Source: Streptomyces sp. T12
Lineage (GTDB): Bacteria; Actinomycetota; Actinomycetes; Streptomycetales; Streptomycetaceae
Length of the DNA: 64,000 bases
NCBI RefSeq assembly: GCF_028736035.1
Contig: NZ_CP117866.1
Location: 4,898,001 to 4,962,000 of the forward strand
Direction of reading: 5' to 3'
Under the pieces are notes generated by a model. The model was given only the letters and a program-made list of their open reading frames with translations, was not told where the DNA came from and searched no databases. Positions 5,001 through 15,278 of this stretch are shown here, in pieces; position 1 is the stretch's first letter; every line of letters begins with the position of its first letter. A program made the position numbers and the translations under genes.

Positions 5001-7034
5001 CTAGAACGGCAACGGCCTCCCGTGCACCACCTCCAACCCCGCCACCGCCCGCGTCACCACCACATACAGCCGCTGCAACCCCCGCTCCTCCGCCTCCACG
5101 ATCGCGGCCGGCTCCACGGCGACGACATGGTCGTACTCCAGCCCCTTCACCACCCTCGCCGGTACGACGGCCACCCGCGCCCGAAGTTCATCCGCACCCC
5201 CCGCCTCGATCCCGGCGGCCGCCAGCGCCTCGCGCACCCGGGCCGCGTCCGCGTCGGCGGCGACGACGCCCACGGACCCCTCCCGGCCCAGCGCATCCCG
5301 TACAGCGCCCACGACCGCACCCATCAGCTCACCCTCCACCGCCTCCCGGAACCGCAACTCCCCGTCCTCCCGCAGCGACCGCGCCGGCGGCACGTCCACC
5401 TCCACCCGCTCCAGCAGCCGGTTGGCCAGCGCCAGCACCGCCCCCGGCACCCGGAACCCCGTCGTGAGCGGTGCGACCACCGCGTCCGGCTTCCCCAGAT
5501 GCCGCAGCACCGTCTCCCAGGACCGCGCGGCCCAGGGCGTCGTCCCCTGCGCCAGGTCCCCGAGCACGGTCAGCGACCCGAAGGCCGCCCGGCGCGCGAT
5601 CGCCCGGCACTCCATCGGCGACAGGTCCTGCGCCTCGTCGACGACGAGATGGCCGTACCCCTGCGGATGTTCGATGAGCCCCGCCACCTCGTCGAGCAGC
5701 ACGAGATCGGCCGCCGACCAGCGCGCCGACTTCCACGACCGCGGCGGCTTCGCCCACAGCAGCGCCTTCTGCTCCTCGGCGTCCAGCAGCCCGTCGGCGG
5801 CGGCCGCCAACACCTGCGGATCGCCGAGCAGTTCGGCCACCACCTCCTCCGGCCTCACCCGCGGCCACACGGCATCGACGTACGCCCCCACCGGCCGCGC
5901 CCGCGAGACCTTCTGCACCCACGCGTTGCTCCGCACCCCGCTGCGCCGCTCGGCCTGGTCGCGGATGAGCCGCACCACCCGAGTCCGCACCCGCTCCCGC
6001 CCGACCGCGTACGGCGGCTCCTCCTCCCGCACCCCCGCCACGATCCGCACGAGCTCGCCCGCCGAGACCCGCCACCGGTACGAACCCTCGGCCAGGACAA
6101 GGGAGTCGACCCCTTCCGTGCGCACCCGCGCGTACAGCGCCCGCCGCAGCACCCGCGCCATCCGGACGTCGTGCTTCACGACGTCCGCCCGCCCGTCGTC
6201 GGCCCCGGTGACCGGATGCCGGGCGATCTCGTCCCGCAGCGTGGACTGGCGTACGCCACTCTCGCCGAGGGCGGGCAGCACCTCGCAGATGTACGACAGG
6301 AACGTCCGGTTGGGCCCGAGGATCAGCAGTCCGCCGCGCCGGATGCGCTGCGGGTGGGTGTAGAGCAGATACGCGGCGCGGTGCAGGCCGACGGCGGTCT
6401 TGCCGGTGCCGGGAGCGCCCTGCACACACACCGACAGGGCGAGATCGCCTCGTACGAGATCGTCCTGCTCGGGCTGGATGGTGGCCGCGATGTCCCGCAT
6501 GGGCCCGACACGGGGCCGCTCGATCTCCCGGGCGACGATGTCGCTGGCCCGGGACTCGCCCCGGTCGAGGTGCTCGTCCTCCATCCCGGTCAGGTCGGCG
6601 GACTCCCCGCGGCTCCCCGGCGCCCAGCCGAACCGCCGCCGTACGGCGACGCCCCGCGGGTCGCGGGCGGAGGCTTGGTAGAAGGCGCGGGAGACGGGAG
6701 CCCGCCAGTCGACGACGAGGGGCGGCGCGGCGGGGTGCTCGGTGATCCGCAACCGCCCGACGCGGTAGCTCTGCCCGCCGTGTTCACCTCCCTCGCCGAA
6801 GTCCAGCCGCCCGAAGAACAGGGGCCCTTCGGGCAGCTCGCGGAGTTCCTTGGCCTGGCTGCGCAGCTGGTACCCGAGGACCTCGGCGTCGGCACCGGAG
6901 GCGGAGACGTCCTCGCCGACGACGACCTGTTCCTGGGCGCCGGCGACCATGGCGGCGAGGGCGGCGCGGCAGCGGTCGTGGTGGGCTCGTTCTTCGGCGA
7001 GGGCGTGCCGGAGGGCAGGTTCGGTTGACGTCAT
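5001..7034 (-). CDS. HelD-like RNA polymerase-associated ATPase (UvrD/Rep-like)
   Basis: A 677-residue superfamily 1 ATPase. An N-terminal coiled-coil region (EERAHHDRCRAALAAMV) comes first. Walker A is GAPGTGKTAVGLH at about residue 205; Walker B is VVDEAQDLSPMECRA and motif III is GDLAQGTTPWA. A C-terminal 2A domain follows, ending VVTRAVAGLEVVHG. The architecture is that of HelD, which removes or recycles stalled RNA polymerase; some actinobacterial relatives give rifamycin tolerance. It lies 55 bp downstream of a TetR gene on the same strand, with a TetR-like palindrome in the gap. TACGCT 7 nt before the ATG suggests a leaderless transcript. Family assignment is firm; class is not. Confidence 0.88.
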   Translation of the reverse strand: MTSTEPALRHALAEERAHHDRCRAALAAMVAGAQEQVVVGEDVSASGADAEVLGYQLRSQAKELRELPEGPLFFGRLDFGEGGEHGGQSYRVGRLRITEHPAAPPLVVDWRAPVSRAFYQASARDPRGVAVRRRFGWAPGSRGESADLTGMEDEHLDRGESRASDIVAREIERPRVGPMRDIAATIQPEQDDLVRGDLALSVCVQGAPGTGKTAVGLHRAAYLLYTHPQRIRRGGLLILGPNRTFLSYICEVLPALGESGVRQSTLRDEIARHPVTGADDGRADVVKHDVRMARVLRRALYARVRTEGVDSLVLAEGSYRWRVSAGELVRIVAGVREEEPPYAVGRERVRTRVVRLIRDQAERRSGVRSNAWVQKVSRARPVGAYVDAVWPRVRPEEVVAELLGDPQVLAAAADGLLDAEEQKALLWAKPPRSWKSARWSAADLVLLDEVAGLIEHPQGYGHLVVDEAQDLSPMECRAIARRAAFGSLTVLGDLAQGTTPWAARSWETVLRHLGKPDAVVAPLTTGFRVPGAVLALANRLLERVEVDVPPARSLREDGELRFREAVEGELMGAVVGAVRDALGREGSVGVVAADADAARVREALAAAGIEAGGADELRARVAVVPARVVKGLEYDHVVAVEPAAIVEAEERGLQRLYVVVTRAVAGLEVVHGRPLPF

Positions 7035-7054
7035 TCGAGCAAGCGTACCCAAAT

Positions 7055-7089: not shown

Positions 7090-7716
7090 TCACTTCGACA
7101 GGTAGGGCAACCCCTTCGCCAGCAGGTCGAACGCCCGCTCGGCAGCGGCCACGGCATCGGCCCGTACATCCTCCGCCCGCTCCCCGCCCGCGATCCGCCG
7201 CCAGTTCTCCAGCGCGAGGATCCGCCGCACGGCGGCGATCTGCCCGGCGGCCAGCCGCGCGTCCAGGTCCCCGCCGAGCGCGTCGGCGAGCGCGGCCTCC
7301 GAACGCTCCAGGTAGGCGTACATGCGCGCGGCCAGCGAGGGAGTCCCGTACAGCAGCGAGTGGTAGCGGAGCACCTCGGGATGGTCGTTCAGCCCGGTGA
7401 CCGGATCACACCGCTCCAGCCCGTCGAGGAAGTGCCGCCGCAGTGCACGAAGAGGCGGGCCCTGCGCGCCGGCCACGATCCGGGCGGCCTCCTGCTCGTG
7501 ATCGGCGATCCGGTACAGGACGAGGTCCTCCTTCGCCGGGAAGTACCGGAAGAGGGTGGGCTTGGAGATCTCGGCCGCGGCGGCGACCTCGGCGACGGAC
7601 ACGGCGTCGAAGCCCTTCTCCAGGAAGAGGCGGACGGCGGTGTCCGACACGGTCTCGTACATCCGCTGCTTCTTGCGCTCGCGCAGCCCGGGCTCTCCGG
7701 CGGGTGTGTCGCTCAT
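7090..7716 (-). CDS. TetR-family transcriptional regulator
   Basis: A 208-residue repressor. The N-terminal domain at about residues 12-60 carries the family pattern VRLFLEKGFDAVSVAEVAAA and KPTLFRYFPAKEDLV. The C-terminal ligand/dimer domain is all-helical with no recognisable ligand signature. The ATG at 7716 has no Shine-Dalgarno, but TAGGCT ends 7 nt upstream, suggesting a leaderless transcript. The HelD-like gene lies 55 bp downstream on the same strand with its own promoter and a TetR-like palindrome. Control of that gene, perhaps in response to an RNA polymerase inhibitor, is a reasonable guess. Confidence 0.9.
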   Translation of the reverse strand: MSDTPAGEPGLRERKKQRMYETVSDTAVRLFLEKGFDAVSVAEVAAAAEISKPTLFRYFPAKEDLVLYRIADHEQEAARIVAGAQGPPLRALRRHFLDGLERCDPVTGLNDHPEVLRYHSLLYGTPSLAARMYAYLERSEAALADALGGDLDARLAAGQIAAVRRILALENWRRIAGGERAEDVRADAVAAAERAFDLLAKGLPYLSK

Positions 7717-7726
7717 GCGAGCGAGC

Positions 7727-8806
7727 CTACGCAGGAGCCATGGCCGTGCTGCGCAGCCAGCTCACCAGCGCCGCCATGATCTGCGAGCGGGTCGGCAGGT
7801 CCACCAAGCCGAGCGGCACGGCTGCGGCGGCCAGGACCCTCTGCAGCTTTCCGGCGGCCTGGGGCAGGGCCACCCAGTCGATCTCCGTGCCGTGGAGAAG
7901 AGACAGCGACACGCGGATGACATCGGTGAAGACCGACTGCGCCCTCTTGAAGTCGAGGAGCAACGGCAGGTCGCCCGCCCAGCCGCGGGAGCTTCCGGGG
8001 CGGACCCGCTCTGCCGCCCGGCACCATTCCTCGGTCATACGCCGTTGCTGATCCGATGGGTAGCGCATCAGGTAGAGATGCGTGGCGAGGTCATAGAGCG
8101 GGTCGCCCAGCATCGCCAGCTCCCAGTCGATCGTCCAGAGCCGGCCTTCGTCGTCGACGATGAAGTTCTCGCGGTGCAGATCCGCGTGCAGAAGGCAGAA
8201 GGGGCGCTCCGACAGCCCCACGAGCACGTGCTTGCGCAGGTGGACGAACGCGTCACTGCCCACGCCGAGACTCATGAAGAGGGCACCGAACTGCCTGCTG
8301 TTCGCGTCGTGGACCCGCTCTTCGACGAACGCGATCAGGCGCTCCAGAAATCCGTTGGTGTCACCGTCCTCGGTCCGATCCTGGGACAGGCACCGCCGCT
8401 CCGCGCTGAGCGACGACGGCGTGATCCGCGCCATCTCCCGGAAGAGGTCGACGATCTGGTCGAGGATCGCCTCCGGAACGCGACGGCCCGTCCAGCGGCG
8501 CGCGCCGATGGTGCGGCCTTCGATGAACAGCTGCAGCCCCATACCCGCGATCTCGAGGACCTCGGGGATCCGTGTGATCCGCCCGCTCAACTCGCGCAGC
8601 AGCTGCTCCTCGGAGCGGAAGCACCGCCGGTCGAACCACAGGAGCCCGTCGCGCGGTTCCCGGCACTTGACGGCATCCGTCCGGCCGGGCAGCGCAAGGA
8701 CGTAGGTCTCGTGGTGATAGCCCTGCAGGGGCCCTGTGATCACCTCGGCGGTCCCGGACATCTCCACGGCACGCTGCCCCGTCACCGAAACGGGCTCCGG
8801 GCTCAT
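7727..8806 (-). CDS. aminoglycoside-phosphotransferase-fold kinase (copy 1)
   Basis: A 359-residue protein of the APH/choline kinase fold. The Brenner loop is LLHADLHRENFIVD (about residue 213) and the metal-binding segment is IDWELAMLGDPLYDLATH. These supply the expected catalytic Asp, Asn and second Asp. The N-terminal ATP-lobe is short, and its lysine is not obvious apart from DAVKCREP. The ATG at 8806 is chosen over a GTG 6 nt upstream because GGGAGG is 7 nt before the ATG. It is a distant paralogue of the kinase at 10687-11706. The neighbours suggest a small-molecule kinase for a signal or metabolite rather than antibiotic resistance. Confidence 0.8.
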   Translation of the reverse strand: MSPEPVSVTGQRAVEMSGTAEVITGPLQGYHHETYVLALPGRTDAVKCREPRDGLLWFDRRCFRSEEQLLRELSGRITRIPEVLEIAGMGLQLFIEGRTIGARRWTGRRVPEAILDQIVDLFREMARITPSSLSAERRCLSQDRTEDGDTNGFLERLIAFVEERVHDANSRQFGALFMSLGVGSDAFVHLRKHVLVGLSERPFCLLHADLHRENFIVDDEGRLWTIDWELAMLGDPLYDLATHLYLMRYPSDQQRRMTEEWCRAAERVRPGSSRGWAGDLPLLLDFKRAQSVFTDVIRVSLSLLHGTEIDWVALPQAAGKLQRVLAAAAVPLGLVDLPTRSQIMAALVSWLRSTAMAPA

Positions 8807-8866
8807 GGGCACCCTCCCCCCACCTCACCGGGCAATGGAGCGTACGCCCGCGGCACGCTCCCGCGC

Positions 8867-9796
8867 TCAGGACGCGCCGGGTCGGGTGGGGAGTGGGATC
8901 GCCGGCTCCGGTTCGCGTGCCGCGTCCCAGAGCGTCTCGAAGAACTCTTGGCGGCGCCTGATCATCATCCGGTCGTGGGCGCCGCCGTCCGGGGACCAGC
9001 GGGTCAGCAGGGAGTCGTAACCGATCAGATCCAGGAGACGGCCGTCGGCCGTGTCGGGGCCGGGCTGGGCGGGCGTGCCGGTGGCCCACGGTTCGGGGCG
9101 CAGGTCGATCTTGTCGTAGATCCCCTCGTACACCCGGTCGTTGATGAAGTAGAGCTTGAGCGAGGGCGACATGTGCAGCACCCGGAACTCGACGGTCAGC
9201 GTCCCCCGCTTGGCGACGGCCATCCGACCTCTCTGATCCTTCAGGCTTCTCTCGTACTCCGCGATCTGGCGCCTCAGCTCCGCGCGGAACGCGGGTGAGT
9301 CGGAGACCTTGCCGCCCGCGCCCACCAGGCCCGGGACCTCGATCTGCCGGGTGAAGTCCGGCACCAGGACCCGAATGCTCACTCTGCGCTGCTTGTTCTC
9401 GCTCAGCTCCTGGAGAAAGGTCTTCAGCGGGGCGGCGAGCGTCTCCCCCGTGAAGCCCATCGCCGCCAGCCGGACGTCTCTGCCCTCGAGCGCCTCCTTG
9501 AACTCGCTCTCCAGCTCCCTCGGCGTGACGACCCTTCCCGAGTTCAGCCTCTGCATCTCGCTGTCCAGGCGCCCGTTGAGCCGCTGCACCTCGGCGTAGA
9601 GCACATAGCCCACCACGGTGACCAGCGACCCGCCCAGATAGACCTTGTCCGCCAGCGCGTCCCCGACCGGCTTCACGAACTGCGCCACCAGACCGATGAC
9701 GAAGACGGCGAAGAGGAAGAGCCGCGTGATGACGGGCTCCAGCCGCCCCCAGCCGGCCGCCAGTCTGCCGCCCCATGACGGCCTTGTGTCCGACAC
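8867..9796 (-). CDS. membrane-anchored protein with a DevA-like ligand-binding domain
   Basis: A 309-residue protein with two predicted membrane helices at about residues 22-42 and 54-70, a short coiled coil (EVQRLNGRLDSEMQRLN), and a soluble domain from about residue 95. By eye the soluble domain aligns with the C-terminal domain of DevA and DevE. Compare TGETLAAPL with TSETLMLAL, IRVLVP with VRILLP, EFRVLHMSPSLKLYFIND with TFRALPFTPPVKLYLLNG, and RRQEFFETLWDA with ESQKWFDALWET. No DNA-binding domain is present. The GTG at 9796 follows GGGGGA; a TTG one codon upstream is less likely. I infer it senses the same class of ligand as DevA at the membrane. I know of no described function. Confidence 0.7.
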   Translation of the reverse strand: MSDTRPSWGGRLAAGWGRLEPVITRLFLFAVFVIGLVAQFVKPVGDALADKVYLGGSLVTVVGYVLYAEVQRLNGRLDSEMQRLNSGRVVTPRELESEFKEALEGRDVRLAAMGFTGETLAAPLKTFLQELSENKQRRVSIRVLVPDFTRQIEVPGLVGAGGKVSDSPAFRAELRRQIAEYERSLKDQRGRMAVAKRGTLTVEFRVLHMSPSLKLYFINDRVYEGIYDKIDLRPEPWATGTPAQPGPDTADGRLLDLIGYDSLLTRWSPDGGAHDRMMIRRRQEFFETLWDAAREPEPAIPLPTRPGAS

Positions 9797-9880
9797 CAAT
9801 TCCCCCTGCCAGCCCCCGACTTGGATCGAGCCTGCTCATGGTGCCCGCTGGGCCGGGCCGTCAGGAAGGGGCCGTGGTCA

Positions 9881-10690
9881 TCACCACGGAATCAGGGCCG
9901 AGAAATCATCGAACCGATGCCTGACGACGGCCACGCCCGCCGCCCGCAGCGCCGCCGCCTCACGCTCGCACGCGCCCTCGCCCCTGCCCCCGCCCCCGCC
10001 CCCGCCATCGTCGCCGTCCTCGCCCGGGTCCGGGGCATACCCCACGAACGCCACCCCGGCCGCCCGCGCCGCCGCCAGGTCCGTCGTCGTGTCCCCGAAC
10101 ATCAGGGCGTCCGCCGCGTCGGCGCCGAACGCGTCCAGCGCCCGGAGCAGGCAGTCCGGGTGGGGTTTCAACCGCCTGGGGTCGCCGGTACGGCCGTGGA
10201 TCCGGCCCGCGAAGTGCTCGTCGAGGCCCATCCGGCGCAGGTACACGGCGACGGCCTCGGGGGAGTTGTTCGTGGTGACGGCGATCCGCACCCCTTCCTT
10301 CGCCAGCCGCCGGACCAGATCCTCCGCACCCTCGGTCGGGGGCGCGATCCGCGCCGCCTCCTTCTCGCCCTGGACGAGACAGGCGTCGAGCTCTGCCACC
10401 AGCGCATCACCGGGACGCGCCGAGTCCACGGCACGCAGCACGACCTGGGGGTCGATGGACGCCAAGGCCGCGGGCGGCAGCAGGGCCAGTGCGCCGCGCC
10501 TCGCGACGATCTTCCGCAGCTCGACGGCGAGCGGTGCCGACGAGGTACCGGGGAACAGCCGGCACAGCGGCCCGTCGAAGTCGAACAGCACGCACCGCCC
10601 CAGCACGATCCGCTCCGCCGCGGCCCGCAACAGTGCGGATTCGTCGAGCGCCACGCTCTGCGGTCGCTCCGTCTCCCGCCGTACGGTCAT
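9881..10690 (-). CDS. HAD-superfamily phosphatase, DevB paralogue
   Basis: A 269-residue HAD hydrolase. Motif I is CVLFDFDGPLCRLF (about residues 32-45), with the nucleophile and acid aspartates. Motif II is IAVTTNNS, motif III the lysine in RLKPHPDCLL, and motif IV LMFGDTTTDLAAA. It shares DFDGP(L/I)CRLF and the surrounding layout with DevB. A glycine-rich insert (GGGGGGG) near residue 225 interrupts the last helix region and is probably a flexible loop. Its ATG overlaps the stop of the upstream kinase gene (ATGA), so the two are translationally coupled. A kinase and a phosphatase made in fixed ratio suggests opposing action on one substrate. Confidence 0.85.
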   Translation of the reverse strand: MTVRRETERPQSVALDESALLRAAAERIVLGRCVLFDFDGPLCRLFPGTSSAPLAVELRKIVARRGALALLPPAALASIDPQVVLRAVDSARPGDALVAELDACLVQGEKEAARIAPPTEGAEDLVRRLAKEGVRIAVTTNNSPEAVAVYLRRMGLDEHFAGRIHGRTGDPRRLKPHPDCLLRALDAFGADAADALMFGDTTTDLAAARAAGVAFVGYAPDPGEDGDDGGGGGGGRGEGACEREAAALRAAGVAVVRHRFDDFSALIPW

Positions 10691-11706
10691 GAAGCGGCCG
10701 TCGGCACGGACAGGCTGTGCCACTTCCGCAGGGCTTCCACCATCTGTTCCAAGTCCGGCACCTCAACGAGCCGCAGCGGCTGACGGGCCCGGCCCATGGC
10801 TCGGCTCACCCGCTCCGCCGCCGCCTGGAAGTGCCGCTCCTCGGCCTCGACCGGGAGAGCGAGTGCCGCGCGCATGACGTCCGGGAAGACGGACTGCGCG
10901 TACTCGAAGGCCAGGTAGGTGTCGAGGTCCTGGTGCAACCCCGCGGTGAGCTCGGCGCAGCCGGCCTCCTCCATGGCCTGGGCCCACAGTTCGACCATTC
11001 GGTCCTGTTCTGCCTTCCCATACCCCGTCCGTACAAGGTGAGTGGCGAGATCGTGCAGGGGGTCGCCGTATATCGCCAGCTCCCAGTCGATCACCGCGAT
11101 CCGTCCGCGGCGCACCACGACGTTGGCGCGGTGGACGTCGGTGTGCAGGAGCTTGAAGGGACGCGAGGTCAGGCCGTGATGGTTCTCCTTGAACGCCGTC
11201 ATCGCGTCCGGGGGAATCCCCACCGCGTCGAAGAGGTCGCCGAACCGGTCCCGGTTGGGCTGGTGCACACGCTGCTCGGTGAAGTCGACCAGCCAGTGCA
11301 GGAACCTGTCGCTGTCGCCGTCGTCCGGCCAGTCCTCGGGAGGCGGCGGGAGCTCCTCGACCGGCACCTGGGCGGTCCTGACGAAGAACGCCGCGAACTC
11401 CCGCATCAGCTTCTCGTCGATCTCACCGGCGGGATTGCGCTCGCTGAGCGCCTCGCCCCTGCGGTACCGGTGCAGGGAGCGGTCGCCGACTTCCCCCAGT
11501 ACGGCGAGACAGCGCGGCACCTCGCGCAGGTACCGGCAGACGACGTCGAGGACATCGGCCTCGCGCGGCCAGATGCGGGGGACGACCTCCACAGTGTTCA
11601 GCGGCACCCGGTACTTGAACCGCGTGTAAGGCACCACACCGATGACCAGGGCCAGCAACAGCCCTACCCGCAACACGTAGTTGGTGTTGTGGTGGCCCCT
11701 GAGCAC
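10687..11706 (-). CDS. aminoglycoside-phosphotransferase-fold kinase (copy 2)
   Basis: A 339-residue APH-fold protein. The catalytic loop is LLHTDVHRANVVVRRG (about residue 195) and the metal site is IDWELAIYGDPLHDLATH, nearly the same as copy 1 at 7727-8806. The N-terminus is uncertain. The GTG at 11706 aligns the start with the conserved GHHNTNYVL segment seen in copy 1 as GYHHETYVL; longer versions upstream look non-coding. A hydrophobic stretch (VGLLLALVIGVV) lies in the N-lobe. It is coupled to the HAD phosphatase by ATGA overlap. Substrate is unknown; antibiotic modification is possible but less likely given the developmental-regulator neighbours. Confidence 0.78.
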   Translation of the reverse strand: MLRGHHNTNYVLRVGLLLALVIGVVPYTRFKYRVPLNTVEVVPRIWPREADVLDVVCRYLREVPRCLAVLGEVGDRSLHRYRRGEALSERNPAGEIDEKLMREFAAFFVRTAQVPVEELPPPPEDWPDDGDSDRFLHWLVDFTEQRVHQPNRDRFGDLFDAVGIPPDAMTAFKENHHGLTSRPFKLLHTDVHRANVVVRRGRIAVIDWELAIYGDPLHDLATHLVRTGYGKAEQDRMVELWAQAMEEAGCAELTAGLHQDLDTYLAFEYAQSVFPDVMRAALALPVEAEERHFQAAAERVSRAMGRARQPLRLVEVPDLEQMVEALRKWHSLSVPTAAS

Positions 11707-11983
11707 CTCACCCCTACCTCGGAGTCGGCGGGACTCCAAAAGGCGGTGCGCGAGCGACGAACGCGCTCCGTGTTGCAGAGGGGGCACGATGGCCGAGATT
11801 AGCGCTTCGCGCTGGGCGCCATGCCAACAGGTGCATAACTTTCCGACCCCTGTGGCACGTTGCACATAGACATTCGCGCACGTCCGGGCGATGCCCGCCG
11901 GTTTGCCCCAACCTGCTCGTTCCCGACAACGGCACGAACGAGACAACCCGTTCGGCGCTAAGCGGGCGGCCTCCACGGGCGGC
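11707..11983. other. intergenic region between devB and the kinase-HAD pair
   Basis: No convincing gene is seen in these 277 bp. They must contain the promoter of the kinase-phosphatase pair and the 3' region of devB. A small hairpin AGCGC-TTC-GCGCT lies near 11804. An AT-richer stretch around 11820-11870 contains TTGCACAT-like and TTATGC-like hexamers, but no clear -35/-10 pair could be assigned. Confidence 0.4.
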
Positions 11984-12721
11984 TCACCCCCGCTCCCTCA
12001 CCGCCACCAGCAACGGCTCCAACGACCCCACGATGTCCGTCGCCCCCGCCTCCCTCAACAGCTTTCCCTTGCGCCCGTTACGCGCGTAGCCCAGGAACGG
12101 AACCCCGGCCTCGCGGGCAGCTTCGTAGTCCGTGGGGGTGTCGCCGATGAACAGGGCGGTGGACGGCGCCGCCCCCATCGCGGTCAGTGCGCGGTTGAGG
12201 TTGCGCGGATGGGGCTTGAGGTACTGGAGGTCCTGGGTGCGGCCGTAGATGTGGGGACCGAAGCAGGCGAGCAGATCGCGGCTGCCCAGGTAGTCGCGGA
12301 CCACTCTCGGAGAGTTGTTGGTGACGATGGCCAGCCGGGACCCCACCGCCGTCAACGTGCGTATCAGAGGGTCGGCGTACGCGGTGGGCATCGCCGACCG
12401 TACGGCGAGCAGTTCCTCCTGGGTGAGACGTTCCTCCAGCTCCGTCACCAGGTCGCTGTCGGGGTGCCGACGGTCGACGGCGCGCAGTACCTCGTGGGGG
12501 TCCCCGGTCTCCCGCTCGTCCCCCGTCAGCAGACCACGCAGCCCCCGCCCTTCGAGCCACTCCACCAACTCGGTCGCCACGCGCGCCGCCGAGTGCCCGG
12601 CGAACAGCCGGCAGATCGGCCCGTCGAAGTCCCAGAGCACGACGCGGGCATGGGCGATCAGTTCCCCGAGACGCTCCGTCTGTATGGTCACCGGTTCAGT
12701 CTGCTTCGTATCAGAAGTCAC
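11984..12721 (-). CDS. devB: DevB, HAD-superfamily phosphatase
   Basis: A 245-residue HAD hydrolase with all four motifs: VVLWDFDGPICRLF, LAIVTNNSPRVV, the lysine in LKPHPRNLN, and ALFIGDTPTDYEAA. It follows devA immediately. The GTG at 12721 shares one base with the devA stop (TAGTG), indicating translational coupling. A GTG at 12691 is an alternative start that would shorten the protein by 10 residues. In S. coelicolor devB is reported to be co-transcribed with devA and required for normal aerial growth and sporulation. The name rests on that arrangement and family match. The substrate is unknown. Confidence 0.85.
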   Translation of the reverse strand: MTSDTKQTEPVTIQTERLGELIAHARVVLWDFDGPICRLFAGHSAARVATELVEWLEGRGLRGLLTGDERETGDPHEVLRAVDRRHPDSDLVTELEERLTQEELLAVRSAMPTAYADPLIRTLTAVGSRLAIVTNNSPRVVRDYLGSRDLLACFGPHIYGRTQDLQYLKPHPRNLNRALTAMGAAPSTALFIGDTPTDYEAAREAGVPFLGYARNGRKGKLLREAGATDIVGSLEPLLVAVRERG

Positions 12722-13596
12722 TAGGAGAGTGTCAGGTCCGTCGTGATGGTTTCCCAGAGGGCGTCGAACCACTTCTGGGATTCCTCCACGAACGCCGCGT
12801 CCCGCTGGCCGGCCTGCTTGACGAAGGAGAAGAGGAGGGACTGGGAGCCGAGGGCGTCGTACATCTCCAGCGTCTGGCTCTCCCACTCCTCCTCGCGTTC
12901 GGTGAGGACGTAGTAGCCGATCAGCGCCTCGTCGCCGTTGAGCAGGTACAGCTTCACCGGCGGGGTGAAGGGCAGCGCGCGAAAGGTGACGTGGACATCG
13001 ATGCCGTGGGTGGAGCGGACCGCCTGAAGGTTGTACCGCAGCACCTGCGCCTGCGCATTGCGCATCTCCAGCCAGCGCTTGTGGACCGGATCCTCGTCGT
13101 CTCCGCGCCCCTCGACCAGTACCGGAAAGGCGAGGTGGATGTCCCGGGACGGCAGCAGGATACGGACGTCGATCGACTTGGGGTGGATCGAGCCGTCGTG
13201 GATCAGGCGCAGCGGCTCACCGAGGGCCAGCATCAGGGTCTCGGAGGTGTGGCATACGACGTCCACGCGCACGTGCGGGGCCGCGAAGGCCTCCGTCAGC
13301 CGTGGCGACAGCCCGACCATCGTCGTCTGGGGGGCGCCCCTCGTGGGGGTGGGGAGGGCGATCCGCGGCGGGCTTCCCTTGCTGACGTTGGTCAGGAGCC
13401 CGTCTTCCTGGAGTGCGCGCAGGGCCTGGCGTACGGTGCCTCGCTCGACGCCGAACTCCTCGGCCAGCTCGGCCTGGGTGGGCAGGCGGTCGCCTGCCTT
13501 GAGGTCACCTACGCGGATGCGTTCCCGCAGGATGTCGGCGATCTCCTGGGGCGAGAGTCTCCTGCTGCCGTTCACTGCCACGTTCTCCTGGGTCAC
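12721..13596 (-). CDS. devA: DevA, GntR-family developmental regulator
   Basis: A 291-residue regulator. The N-terminal winged helix is at about residues 12-75 (GDRLPTQAELAEEFGVERGT, TVRQALRALQEDGLLTNVSKG). The C-terminal domain is not the usual FadR, HutC or MocR type but the DevA-subfamily domain: VRILLPSRDIHLAFP, then FRALPFTPPVKLYLLNG, ending KWFDALWETI. In S. coelicolor DevA is needed for proper aerial hyphae and spore septation. The GTG at 13596 is chosen because TAGCGT ends exactly 6 nt upstream and there is no Shine-Dalgarno, giving a leaderless mRNA. devE has the same arrangement. It is the first gene of a devAB operon and is divergent from a small membrane protein. Confidence 0.9.
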   Translation of the reverse strand: MTQENVAVNGSRRLSPQEIADILRERIRVGDLKAGDRLPTQAELAEEFGVERGTVRQALRALQEDGLLTNVSKGSPPRIALPTPTRGAPQTTMVGLSPRLTEAFAAPHVRVDVVCHTSETLMLALGEPLRLIHDGSIHPKSIDVRILLPSRDIHLAFPVLVEGRGDDEDPVHKRWLEMRNAQAQVLRYNLQAVRSTHGIDVHVTFRALPFTPPVKLYLLNGDEALIGYYVLTEREEEWESQTLEMYDALGSQSLLFSFVKQAGQRDAAFVEESQKWFDALWETITTDLTLS

Positions 13597-13629
13597 GACC
13601 AAACGCTACAACTCTCACCCATCTAAGGG
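13597..13629 (-). promoter_or_regulatory. devA promoter block, predicted leaderless
   Basis: Read on the minus strand, AGATGGGTGAGAGTTGTAGC continues into GTTTGGTC and then the GTG start. The -10 is TAGCGT at 13603-13608 and is followed by 6 nt. A closely similar block with identical spacing precedes devE. Conservation between paralogues marks it as a functional promoter and possibly an operator. Confidence 0.65.
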
Positions 13630-13685
13630 GAGTTGTTTGTAGCTTGTTTCAAAGTAGGGGCCAAGTGGGGACAACTTAGTCAGAG

Positions 13686-13695
13686 TTGGCGCCAA
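13686..13695. promoter_or_regulatory. palindrome in devA / small-protein divergent region
   Basis: TTGGCGCCAA is a perfect 10-bp palindrome in the context AGTTGGCGCCAAGTTGG. The half-site AGTTGGCG recurs 17 bp further on. The matching divergent region of devE carries AAGTTGGTCGCCAACTT. Shared GTTGG/CCAAC symmetry suggests a common operator for the DevA family. Confidence 0.5.
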
Positions 13696-13755
13696 GTTGG
13701 TTGAGTTGGCGGAAGTAATCCTTCCATCCCCAGAAGCCCGAAGGGGGAAACACAG

Positions 13756-13944
13756 ATGCCCGTCCTCGCACTCCTCTCCGCCGTGTTCGTCGTTGGCGTC
13801 GAGCAGACCCTCCAGTGGAAGTACGGTGCCACCGGCATCATCGGCCTGCTGTTGCTCACCATAGGCATCAAGGCCAAGAGCCCTGCGGTCAGTTCGATCG
13901 GGGCCGTCGTCCTCGCCCTCCTGGTCTCGGGCCCCGCCCTGTGA
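13756..13944 (+). CDS. small membrane protein divergent from devA
   Basis: A 62-residue protein with two predicted membrane helices (about residues 2-18 and 26-58, the latter broken by IKAK). The pattern QWKYGATGIIGLLLLTIGIK recurs in the 59-residue protein beside devE, so they are paralogues that duplicated together with their regulators. The ATG follows GAAGGGGGAA. The inter-helix segment EQTLQWKYG is polar and conserved in both. I do not recognise the family. Its position makes it a candidate target or accessory factor of DevA. Confidence 0.75.
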   Translation: MPVLALLSAVFVVGVEQTLQWKYGATGIIGLLLLTIGIKAKSPAVSSIGAVVLALLVSGPAL

Positions 13945-13992
13945 GCCATGGGTACCAGGCGTGCCCCGCATGCAACGAACACACAGGTCAAA

Positions 13993-14051
13993 CACTGTGG
14001 GAGACGATCAGCTCGTGAGCACCAGCTCCGAACTGATCGTCTCCCACAGTG
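13993..14051. terminator. 19-bp perfect inverted repeat spanning the devE stop codon
   Basis: CACTGTGGGAGACGATCAG (13993-14011) and its exact reverse complement (14033-14051) enclose a 21-nt loop that contains the last devE codons and lies over the stop at 14008. The 14033-14051 arm encodes LWETIS of DevE; the other arm is an inverted copy beyond the stop. On the minus strand the second arm is followed by TTTGACC. It should act as a very strong terminator or 3' stabiliser. Confidence 0.7.
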
Positions 14052-14919
14052 CGTTGAACCACACATGCGACTGCTCCACGAACGTCATGTCCCGCAGCCC
14101 GGCCCCCTGCTCGAAGGCGAACAGCAACGACTGGATGCCCGGAGCGTCGTACATCTCCAGGTGCTGGTGGTCGATCTCCACCTCGCGGCGCGACAGTGTG
14201 TAGTACGCGAAGAGCGCCTCCGTGCCGTTGAGCAGGTACAGCTTCACCGGCGGGGTGAACGGCAGCGCGCGGAAGCTGACCTGCACATCGATGCCGTGCG
14301 TGGCGCGCAGCGCCAGCAGGTTGTGCTGGAGCACCTGGCCCTGGGCGTTGCGCTGGGTGAGCCAGCGCCGGCGCAGCTCTTCGTCGGCGTCGTCGGCCGA
14401 AGCGTCCACCGGCGTCGGGAAGGCGAGCGAGATGTCACGGCTCGGCAGCAGGATGCGGACGTCGACCTTGGCCGGTTTCAGCCGTCCGGCGTGGATCTGG
14501 CGGAGCGGTTCGCCGATGGCGAGCGTGAGGGAGACCGAGGTCAGGCACAGGGCGTCGATCTCGACGTGCGGGGCCGCGAAGGCGGCGGCGATGCGCGGGG
14601 CGAGGGCCACCATGGTGGTCTGCGGCGGGGCTCCGGGGCCGGTCAGCGCCCTGCCGAGGTCGGGTGCGACGGTCGCCGGGGCCCCTTTGGAGACATTGGT
14701 GAGCAGGTGCTCCGACTGCAGGATGCGCAGGGCCTGCCGTACCGCTCCGCGCTCGACACCGAACTCGTCGGCCAGCTTGGCCTGGGTGGGCATGCGCTGG
14801 CCGGGCCGCAACTCGCCCGAGGCGATCCGGGCGCGCAGCTCGTCGGCCACCTCCCGATGTGACTTCTGTGGCCGCTGTGAACTCTTCCGCCCATTGACGG
14901 AGACGGGTTTCGGCTCCAC
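14008..14919 (-). CDS. devE: DevE, DevA-paralogous GntR regulator
   Basis: A 303-residue close paralogue of DevA. The winged helix is at about residues 20-80 (GQRMPTQAKLADEFGVERGA, VRQALRILQSEHLLTNVSKG), followed by the same DevA-type ligand domain (VRILLPSRDISLAFP, FRALPFTPPVKLYLLNG, WFNALWETIS). It differs by an Ala/Gly/Pro-rich linker insert. The GTG at 14919 has TAGTGT ending 6 nt upstream, the same spacing as devA, so a leaderless mRNA is predicted. Unlike devA it has no HAD gene behind it. In S. coelicolor the devE paralogue lies near devA and has a distinct developmental role. The name rests on this synteny. Confidence 0.88.
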   Translation of the reverse strand: MEPKPVSVNGRKSSQRPQKSHREVADELRARIASGELRPGQRMPTQAKLADEFGVERGAVRQALRILQSEHLLTNVSKGAPATVAPDLGRALTGPGAPPQTTMVALAPRIAAAFAAPHVEIDALCLTSVSLTLAIGEPLRQIHAGRLKPAKVDVRILLPSRDISLAFPTPVDASADDADEELRRRWLTQRNAQGQVLQHNLLALRATHGIDVQVSFRALPFTPPVKLYLLNGTEALFAYYTLSRREVEIDHQHLEMYDAPGIQSLLFAFEQGAGLRDMTFVEQSHVWFNALWETISSELVLTS

Positions 14920-14952
14920 GGCCAAACACTACAACTTCCCGCCATCTTTGGG
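14920..14952 (-). promoter_or_regulatory. devE promoter block, predicted leaderless
   Basis: On the minus strand AGATGGCGGGAAGTTGTAGT runs into GTTTGGCC and the GTG start. The -10 TAGTGT lies at 14926-14931, 6 nt before the start. It matches the devA block at nearly every position from AGATGG onward. Confidence 0.62.
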
Positions 14953-15005
14953 CAGTTCCGGGGAAGGTGGTTATAGGACGCTTCCAAGCGGTCATAAGTA
15001 CAGTG

Positions 15006-15022
15006 AAGTTGGTCGCCAACTT
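15006..15022. promoter_or_regulatory. palindrome in devE / small-protein divergent region
   Basis: AAGTTGGTCGCCAACTT has perfect 7-bp arms around TCG. It sits about 75 bp upstream of the small membrane protein start and about 90 bp from devE. It resembles the TTGGCGCCAA element in the paralogous devA region. Confidence 0.52.
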
Positions 15023-15098
15023 AAGCAACATGGTCAAACTTTCAGAGGGTTGGCCACCAGAGTGGGTTCTGTCGACCATCGCCCCGAAGGAGACCGGC

Positions 15099-15278
15099 AT
15101 GCCGCTCGTCTACCTCGCCGTCGCCGCACTCGCCATCGGATTCGAGCAGCTCGTCCAGTGGAAGTACGGGCCGATGGGCATCATCGCCTTCCTGGCGCTG
15201 TCCATCGGCATCAAGGCAAAGAACACCATGATCGGCGGCATCGGCGCGGTGATCCTCGTGATGCTGCTCGCCCACTAG
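15099..15278 (+). CDS. small membrane protein divergent from devE
   Basis: A 59-residue paralogue of the protein at 13756-13944, sharing QWKYGxxGIIxxLxLxIGIK and two predicted membrane helices. The ATG at 15099 follows AAGGAG with good spacing. An upstream in-frame extension exists but reads as non-coding. It is divergent from devE, just as its paralogue is from devA, so the regulator/small-protein pair was duplicated as a unit. No function is known to me. Confidence 0.75.
   Translation: MPLVYLAVAALAIGFEQLVQWKYGPMGIIAFLALSIGIKAKNTMIGGIGAVILVMLLAH

Follow-up and report, generated by a model that had tools for sequence, protein, structure and literature searches.

A devA-devB locus of Streptomyces sp. 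T12 with linked APH-fold kinases and predicted phospholipase-D-like sensors, and its relatives on conjugative elements

Introduction

Why do two kinases, two phosphatases and three proteins sharing one sensor domain lie side by side at a developmental locus of Streptomyces sp. T12? The stretch analyzed here (the window: 64,000 nucleotides, C1:4898001-4962000, from a genome of 11.46 Mb) contains at positions 7727-15278 two APH-fold kinases, two HAD phosphatases with the motif DFDGPxCRLF, the regulators DevA and DevE, and a membrane protein whose sensor domain is of the DevA type. All of these had been named in a first-pass annotation made from the sequence alone, which read them as a possible circuit phosphorylating and dephosphorylating a small molecule sensed by the DevA-type domain; two small devC-like genes (13756-13944 and 15099-15278) were missing from its count. 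We confirm the observation and find the interpretation partly supported: genomic linkage ties the kinases to devA-devB, whereas a closed transcriptional loop extending over the kinases is not borne out. The reading we prefer, at roughly even odds (a probability of about 0.5), is that the locus is an expanded three-part module, composed of a sensor with a dead phospholipase D (PLD) domain, a HAD phosphatase and a dev-specific APH kinase, handling one phosphorylated ligand. The new points are the predicted fold of the sensor and a sister clade of such sensors borne on mobile elements.

According to the available sections of PMC3187754, mutants of devA, devE and devB have development defects, DevA represses its own transcription, and in S. 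coelicolor the DevA subfamily has a role in aerial growth and septation. We take the GntR gene at 12721-13596 as devA and that at 14008-14919 as devE because a HAD gene is coupled to the former, which is the arrangement in that account. Genes of the window were called from sequence and codon use, and the features are, from 15278 down to 7727:

15099..15278, + strand: devC-like small membrane protein of 59 residues, divergent from devE; similar genes occur in many fetched loci
15006..15022, no strand: palindrome AAGTTGGCGACCAACTT between devE and the devC-like gene; putative DevE/DevA operator
14008..14919, - strand: DevE, a GntR winged helix with a predicted phospholipase-D-like sensor domain
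13756..13944, + strand: devC, small membrane protein of 62 residues, divergent from devA; named after PMC3187754
13684..13700, no strand: variant palindrome CCAACTTGGCGCCAACT between devA and devC, from the intergenic alignment
12721..13596, - strand: DevA, a GntR winged helix with a predicted phospholipase-D-like sensor domain (~residues 91-291)
11984..12721, - strand: DevB, HAD phosphatase; 1-nt overlap with devA
10687..11787, - strand: kin2, APH-fold kinase with intact catalytic residues
9881..10690, - strand: HAD2, second HAD phosphatase; ATGA overlap with kin2
8867..9796, - strand: membrane-anchored DevA-type sensor with two long N-terminal helices and a predicted phospholipase-D-like domain
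7727..8806, - strand: kin1, APH-fold kinase resembling the kinase after devB in many genomes

The kinases are linked to DevA-type genes

Both kinases match the APH family (PF01636; kin1 E 1.4e-18 and kin2 E 1.2e-17, 67.9 and 65 bits against a cut-off of 23.2) and hold its kinase residues K, E, HxDx4N and D. Their genomic company was surveyed in 101 genomes of the genus, the window's own included, with DevA/DevE relatives taken at E<=1e-50 and kin1 relatives at E<=1e-13. Each family is present in 47 of these genomes; 45 encode both and 52 neither. The two genomes with a kinase and no DevA/DevE relative (G030 and G072) have it adjoining a more distant DevA-type GntR gene (32-37%; L084, L091), and in 46 of the 47 kinase genomes the kinase lies within ~10 kb of a DevA-type gene on the same contig. 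The exception is G001, where the contig ends between the two genes and the kinase contig continues into TetR and helicase genes (L113). The next best kinase match in the remaining genomes is at 2.4e-6 over 45 residues. Absence or scattering of the kinases in genomes with devA/devB, which the first-pass annotation had set against its own proposal, is thus not what we find (45/47; linked in 46/47), while the second HAD and the membrane sensor turn out to be confined to a minority.

With the kinase profile as the starting point, matches at E<=1e-20 occur in 110 of 197 genomes sampled from the order, and 35 of the 40 kinase loci fetched from these, odd ones first, have both sensor and HAD. The trio is also encountered off the chromosomal locus: on one Streptomyces linear plasmid a sensor gene is followed by genes for a HAD and a kin1-type kinase, as in devA-devB-kin1, and this kinase shares 47% identity with kin1 (E 2e-103, small local search); a second plasmid encodes a HAD (49% to DevB), a sensor and a kin2-type kinase (39%; L250 and L251), while a locus from another genus of the family (L253) shows the order sensor-HAD-kinase-HAD with the genes flanking the chromosomal locus absent nearby. 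Since the trio has been transferred to two linear plasmids and another genus, the kinase-sensor-HAD association is independently supported. Among 72,556 plasmid records only 4 have a match to DevA or to its element relative, and the two from Nocardia are without the trio. By genomics, then, the kinases are partners of devA-devB, and the co-occurrence counts speak for a grouping beyond chance.

Neither NCBIfam nor PDB relatives yielded a substrate name, the matches being too weak: the curated models nearest to kin1 are diverse (GntI 5e-9, thiamine kinase 6e-9, CcrZ 4e-5), and the PDB relatives found by profile, choline kinase and hygromycin kinase among them, align over 38-59 residues only. The APH fold acts on many substrates, and this breadth, together with such weak, diverse and short matches, speaks for an alternative that we hold to be decidedly unlikely, namely that the kinases have another target, for example an antibiotic, a lipid head group or a protein, and are an output of the locus instead of the source of a ligand; a DevA operator, expected at a direct output gene, is however absent before them (see below).

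A predicted phospholipase-D-like sensor domain

DevA and DevE are 61% identical, match GntR (PF00392; E 5.8e-18 and 1.7e-17) and fall within one 43-row set at a Shimodaira-Hasegawa-like approximate likelihood ratio (SH-aLRT) value of 100, in trees that are unrooted, come from quick searches and have SH-aLRT as their only support measure. Their helix-turn-helix fits GntR, with PF01978 matching at E 0.022 only; beyond it, DevE gives only winged-helix matches at E<=1, and UTRA is absent among the 25 of 30 DevA matches listed. The presence of a DevA-type domain in the membrane protein, proposed earlier, is real (profile-profile probability 99.84%, E 4e-30, 191 columns). The structure model of DevA has a mean confidence (pLDDT, predicted local distance difference test) of 90.1, and its comparison with the PDB returned mostly winged-helix rows, with a single PLD row at rank 48; as these rows dominated, the second fold search used the membrane protein. 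Together, the predicted models of DevA and the membrane protein point to a phospholipase-D fold for the sensor domain.

The catalytic His of the HKD motif of this fold is absent in 156 of 157 sensor domains and its Asp is replaced by Asn in 152 of 157, while the Lys is conserved; one protein (L058_09) has an HxKx4D string elsewhere in its sensor domain. The domain is accordingly best described as a predicted PLD member by fold only and not as an active PLD, and the model points to a candidate pocket formed by Lys215, Asn220, Arg145 and Arg206 of DevA. PADLOC gave no convincing match for the dev proteins, returning only weak winged-helix matches, for DevA. A sensor domain of this type also occurs at L095:7993-8889 (+) behind an N-terminus that resembles an XRE helix-turn-helix and not GntR.

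Both phosphatases match the HAD family (PF00702; DevB E 1.8e-17, HAD2 E 3.1e-23) with complete type IA motifs (DFDGPxCRLF, TNNS, LKPHP and GDTPTD/GDTTTD). Related HAD domains of altered character were seen elsewhere: proteins of ~1080-1625 residues with a C-terminal DevB-like HAD domain are encoded at L099:4703-8998 (G000:C1 ~3153700-3158000), L100-L102 and L117, the one in L099 reading GFEGPLTRPF at the catalytic Asp motif and being probably a pseudo-phosphatase. Second devB-like genes lie outside the slot in L104 and L106, adjoining a 280-residue gene, with sensor and kinase absent nearby; in L104 the first HAD motif is FGFDGPICRLF, so that the nucleophile Asp is missing.

Organization of the locus and its variants

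The window's locus has the arrangement of the DevA subfamily, in which devA adjoins devB and devC is divergent. Both overlaps pointed out before are real: kin2 and HAD2 have the four bases ATGA (10687-10690) in common, and DevA and DevB the single base 12721. The + strand open reading frame at 14967-15278 very probably starts at 15099, giving a 59-residue product like the second small protein; searches of Pfam and NCBIfam with it returned zero matches at E<=1. Beyond kin1 follow a TetR gene (7090-7716) and a helicase gene (5001-7052).

A map of 59 stretches around DevA-type or membrane-sensor matches, plus one flank from the window's own genome, shows that genes of the DevA/DevE group mostly lie between a GNAT gene and the TetR-helicase pair. 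Genes of the fetched loci were called with a simple codon-usage caller that misses some (such as a membrane-protein match in L049), and absences are thus upper bounds. The content of this slot varies: its minimal form is devC-devA-devB-kin1, and longer forms add devE, a third GntR (~30-38% to DevA), a tandem-APH protein (~700-765 residues) or the membrane sensor. The ~715-residue proteins beside many dev loci were considered as kinase-HAD fusions and rejected as such, each consisting of two tandem APH domains. In the combined set, 54 loci pair a DevA-type sensor with one or more flank genes; of these, 47 have a kinase, 52 a HAD and 11 a membrane sensor. Sensor loci with no flank gene (elements and contig pieces) include a kinase in 2 of 22. 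Seemingly reduced slots were noted in L103, L107, L108 and L110, which have devB alone, devB with a 68-residue devA piece, or a sensor with neither HAD nor kinase.

The membrane sensor and HAD2 are minority parts. At E<1e-25 the former occurs 12 times in 11 of the 101 genomes, and 10 of the 12 copies lie at the dev locus; the latter belongs to a clade of five members (the window, L048, L057, L059 and L065; SH-aLRT 95, again from a quick tree search), directly following a kinase in three of the four outside the window. Among named proteins, one from Streptomyces cyaneus comes closest to the membrane sensor, at 94% identity. In the available part of PMC4340878, S. coelicolor SCO4193 is labelled a putative ATP/GTP-binding membrane protein, and the window's membrane sensor shares 49% identity with a similarly named S. 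lividans protein (P0078); hence S. coelicolor probably has one as well.

The variability of the slot favors an alternative that we consider unlikely, in which the interval between GNAT and TetR/helicase is a plastic parking place whose kinases and HADs do separate metabolic jobs unrelated to a DevA ligand. Its content differs widely between genomes, its genes have no common operator, and in L257 the slot is occupied by an ATPase and two divergent APH kinases with no DevA-type gene. Against this, the kinase family was not found apart from a DevA-type neighbor in the 101-genome sample, and the trio is also present off the slot, on the two linear plasmids and in the other genus.

A candidate operator

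The palindrome AGTTGG-N3-CCAACT is present in 21 of 30 devA/devC and 14 of 15 devE/devC-like intergenic regions. Across the genome, AAGTTGGNNACCAACTT matches exactly at one place, the 17-bp site at 15006-15022, and the window's devA site is a variant of the palindrome. Allowing up to three mismatches within 250 bases upstream, sites precede 29 of 35 devE-like and 30 of 75 devA-like genes, the latter including distant ones. Only the exact site is quoted because matches with up to two mismatches genome-wide (16 and 12) are not clearly above a reversed-pattern control (5 and 10). DevA, DevE and their devC partners thus look autoregulated through a common putative site, with devB following by coupling. 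Two identical one-mismatch copies of the palindrome, in opposite orientations, lie at G000:C1:13104-13120 and 11331303-11331319, ~13 kb and 29 kb from opposite ends of an 11.36-Mb contig.

An element-borne sister clade

In several Streptomyces genomes and in Jiangella, the distant DevA-type genes adjoin genes of pSAM2-type elements: an integrase, an HTH_17 excisionase, RepSA, an FtsK-type Tra and DUF2637. Pairs of GntR and HAD near such genes were seen in L079, L082, L087, L092, L096, L151, L153-L159 and L168, and also among L169-L248, the best 80 of 162 relatives from a scan of named genomes; the devA-like loci of Salinispora, Kribbella and Stackebrandtia are not among the loci compared here. 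The GntR gene is mostly divergent from the Tra gene. Among these best 80 of 162, a HAD is encoded just downstream of the sensor in 80/80 and the GNAT and helicase pair in 0/80; at least one of the five element genes is present in 56/80 (Tra 49, Rep 34, Int 25). Sixty sister-clade loci span at least 18 kb: in 33 of them two or more element genes are present, in 8 a single one, and in 19 none of those sought; some of the loci lacking element genes may be other elements, as L081, L083, L086 and L089 have many small genes. Confirmation by Pfam of RepSA (PF20199; E 6e-153 and 1e-146) and of Tra covers two loci only. On two Nocardia plasmids (L249, L252) the element-type DevA relative is divergent from transfer genes and a family 2 glycosyltransferase replaces the HAD. 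The dev operator precedes 1 of the 80 element-borne regulators, equal to shuffled controls (0-1); these regulators have other palindromes. No description of the element-borne GntR-HAD pair was found in the open-licence literature searched.

These loci invite the view that the dev genes are a domesticated regulator-HAD pair of conjugative elements, still serving mainly to read element-related or host cues, to which the kinases were added later. The constant HAD, the frequent element genes and the RepSA and Tra matches agree with it, as does the wider spread of the element clade, which spans more actinomycete groups than the dev locus; we nevertheless regard it as improbable, for the unrooted tree fits either direction, and 17 element query proteins gave zero matches in the DevA/DevE slot loci.

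Mechanistic interpretation

The linkage of the kinases with a sensor of predicted dead-PLD fold suggests that a small phosphorylated molecule may be read by the sensor, and we regard this metabolite hypothesis as reasonable. In the mechanism we favor, the kinase would make a phosphorylated small metabolite and the HAD would remove the phosphate, or the two would act on neighboring forms of the metabolite. The dead PLD domain would bind the phosphorylated form in a pocket retaining the HKD Lys; binding in DevA or DevE would act at AGTTGG-N3-CCAACT to free the promoters of devA-devB and of the divergent devC from repression, and the same domain in the membrane protein would report the ligand level at the membrane. 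DevB production would then lower the ligand, a negative feedback that could help to time the stop of aerial-hyphae growth (DevA) and septation (DevE). The parts, their linkage, the intact kinase and HAD motifs, the predicted fold and the operator pattern form the observed basis; from these we infer a substrate common to kinase and HAD, its identity with the ligand, and which way each step runs.

Several findings weigh against this proposal. A search for a DevA operator common to the kinases came out negative: with up to three mismatches allowed, no kinase (0/47), HAD (0/59) or membrane gene (0/10) has it in the 250 bases upstream, and the kinases are therefore probably not direct DevA targets. 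With gaps of 49-539 bases between HAD and kinase (n=24), they would probably be outside DevA control except by read-through, which speaks against the tightest form of the circuit first proposed. The kinase is dispensable to the sensor-HAD pair, as 0/80 sister-clade loci (best 80 of 162) have one of the dev type, and two genomes (G020 and G092) have DevA/DevE with no kinase. In five of the 40 kinase loci (L254-L258) sensor and HAD are absent and the kinase is divergent (E ~1e-62 to 1e-68), a large ATPase-like gene (~750-840 residues) being followed by one or two divergent APH kinases; these look like another system, which in L257 (6254-10742) occupies the dev slot, and two L257 proteins submitted to PADLOC gave zero matches. 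Related genomes of one genus are moreover not independent events. PMC3187754 calls the DevA/DevE signal unknown, with no later answer in the literature searched, and its available sections report that DevA and DevE mutants differ and that the genes do not cross-complement, so that two ligands or set points are possible.

More tentatively, and on balance doubtfully, DevA-type dead PLD domains may throughout read one phosphorylated intracellular metabolite that a dedicated APH kinase makes and a HAD removes, conjugative elements across actinomycetes carrying this sensor-HAD pair so as to match the timing of transfer to that developmental cue of the host. On this view, the genes described as 'ancestral singleton devA' would regulate elements, and the inability of Salinispora devA to complement devA or devE would appear in another light. 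Given the element genes near 56 of the 80 sister-clade loci, some of these singletons may be such regulators. In Actinosynnema pretiosum (L211), a congener of a species in PMC3187754, the relative has integrase and Tra matches in its locus. The element-borne relatives may connect the control of sporulation with that of conjugation, and they call for caution about the published association of morphological complexity with duplication of a single devA passed on by vertical descent; PMC3187754 itself names horizontal transfer for extra copies in S. sviceus. As the kinase was found only with DevA-type genes in the genus sample, its product is the first candidate for the ligand.

Comparison with known systems

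The devA-devB-devC-devE locus of S. coelicolor (PMC3187754) agrees with the window's locus in genes and arrangement, having devA with devB, a divergent small devC and a duplicate devE. The words kinase, phosphotransferase, conjugative, integrative and pSAM2 are absent from the main text of that paper, and the account in its available sections does not include the kinases, the second HAD, the membrane sensor or the fold of the sensor domain. More widely, no earlier description of the kinases or of the membrane sensor's domain was found in the open-licence literature searched.

A second comparison is with the KorSA-type GntR regulators of pSAM2-like actinomycete integrative and conjugative elements (AICEs), which resemble the element-borne regulators described here in being GntR proteins among Rep and Tra genes. 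Among regulators of this kind SCO3932 binds its own divergent promoter and is assigned to the HutC subfamily (PMC8584621, available part). The element regulators found here differ in having the predicted PLD-like domain and a HAD partner, whereas the available text of PMC8584621 mentions neither DevA nor a phosphatase and the available parts of PMC3218068 and PMC8584621 mention no HAD partner for KorSA-like regulators of pSAM2-type elements. The dev slot itself differs from an AICE in lacking matches to the integrase, Rep and Tra queries.

At the level of the predicted fold, the sensor resembles the phospholipase D superfamily (Nuc, NucT, PPK, Zucchini), with which it has the HKD Lys in common, but the sensor domains lack the catalytic His (156/157) and have Asn for Asp (152/157). 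Another parallel is offered by archaeal TrmB, the sugar-sensing regulators in which a PLD fold has likewise lost its catalytic His; the dev sensors are set apart from these by a GntR-type DNA-binding domain, an identity of 9-16%, and their HAD and APH kinase partners.

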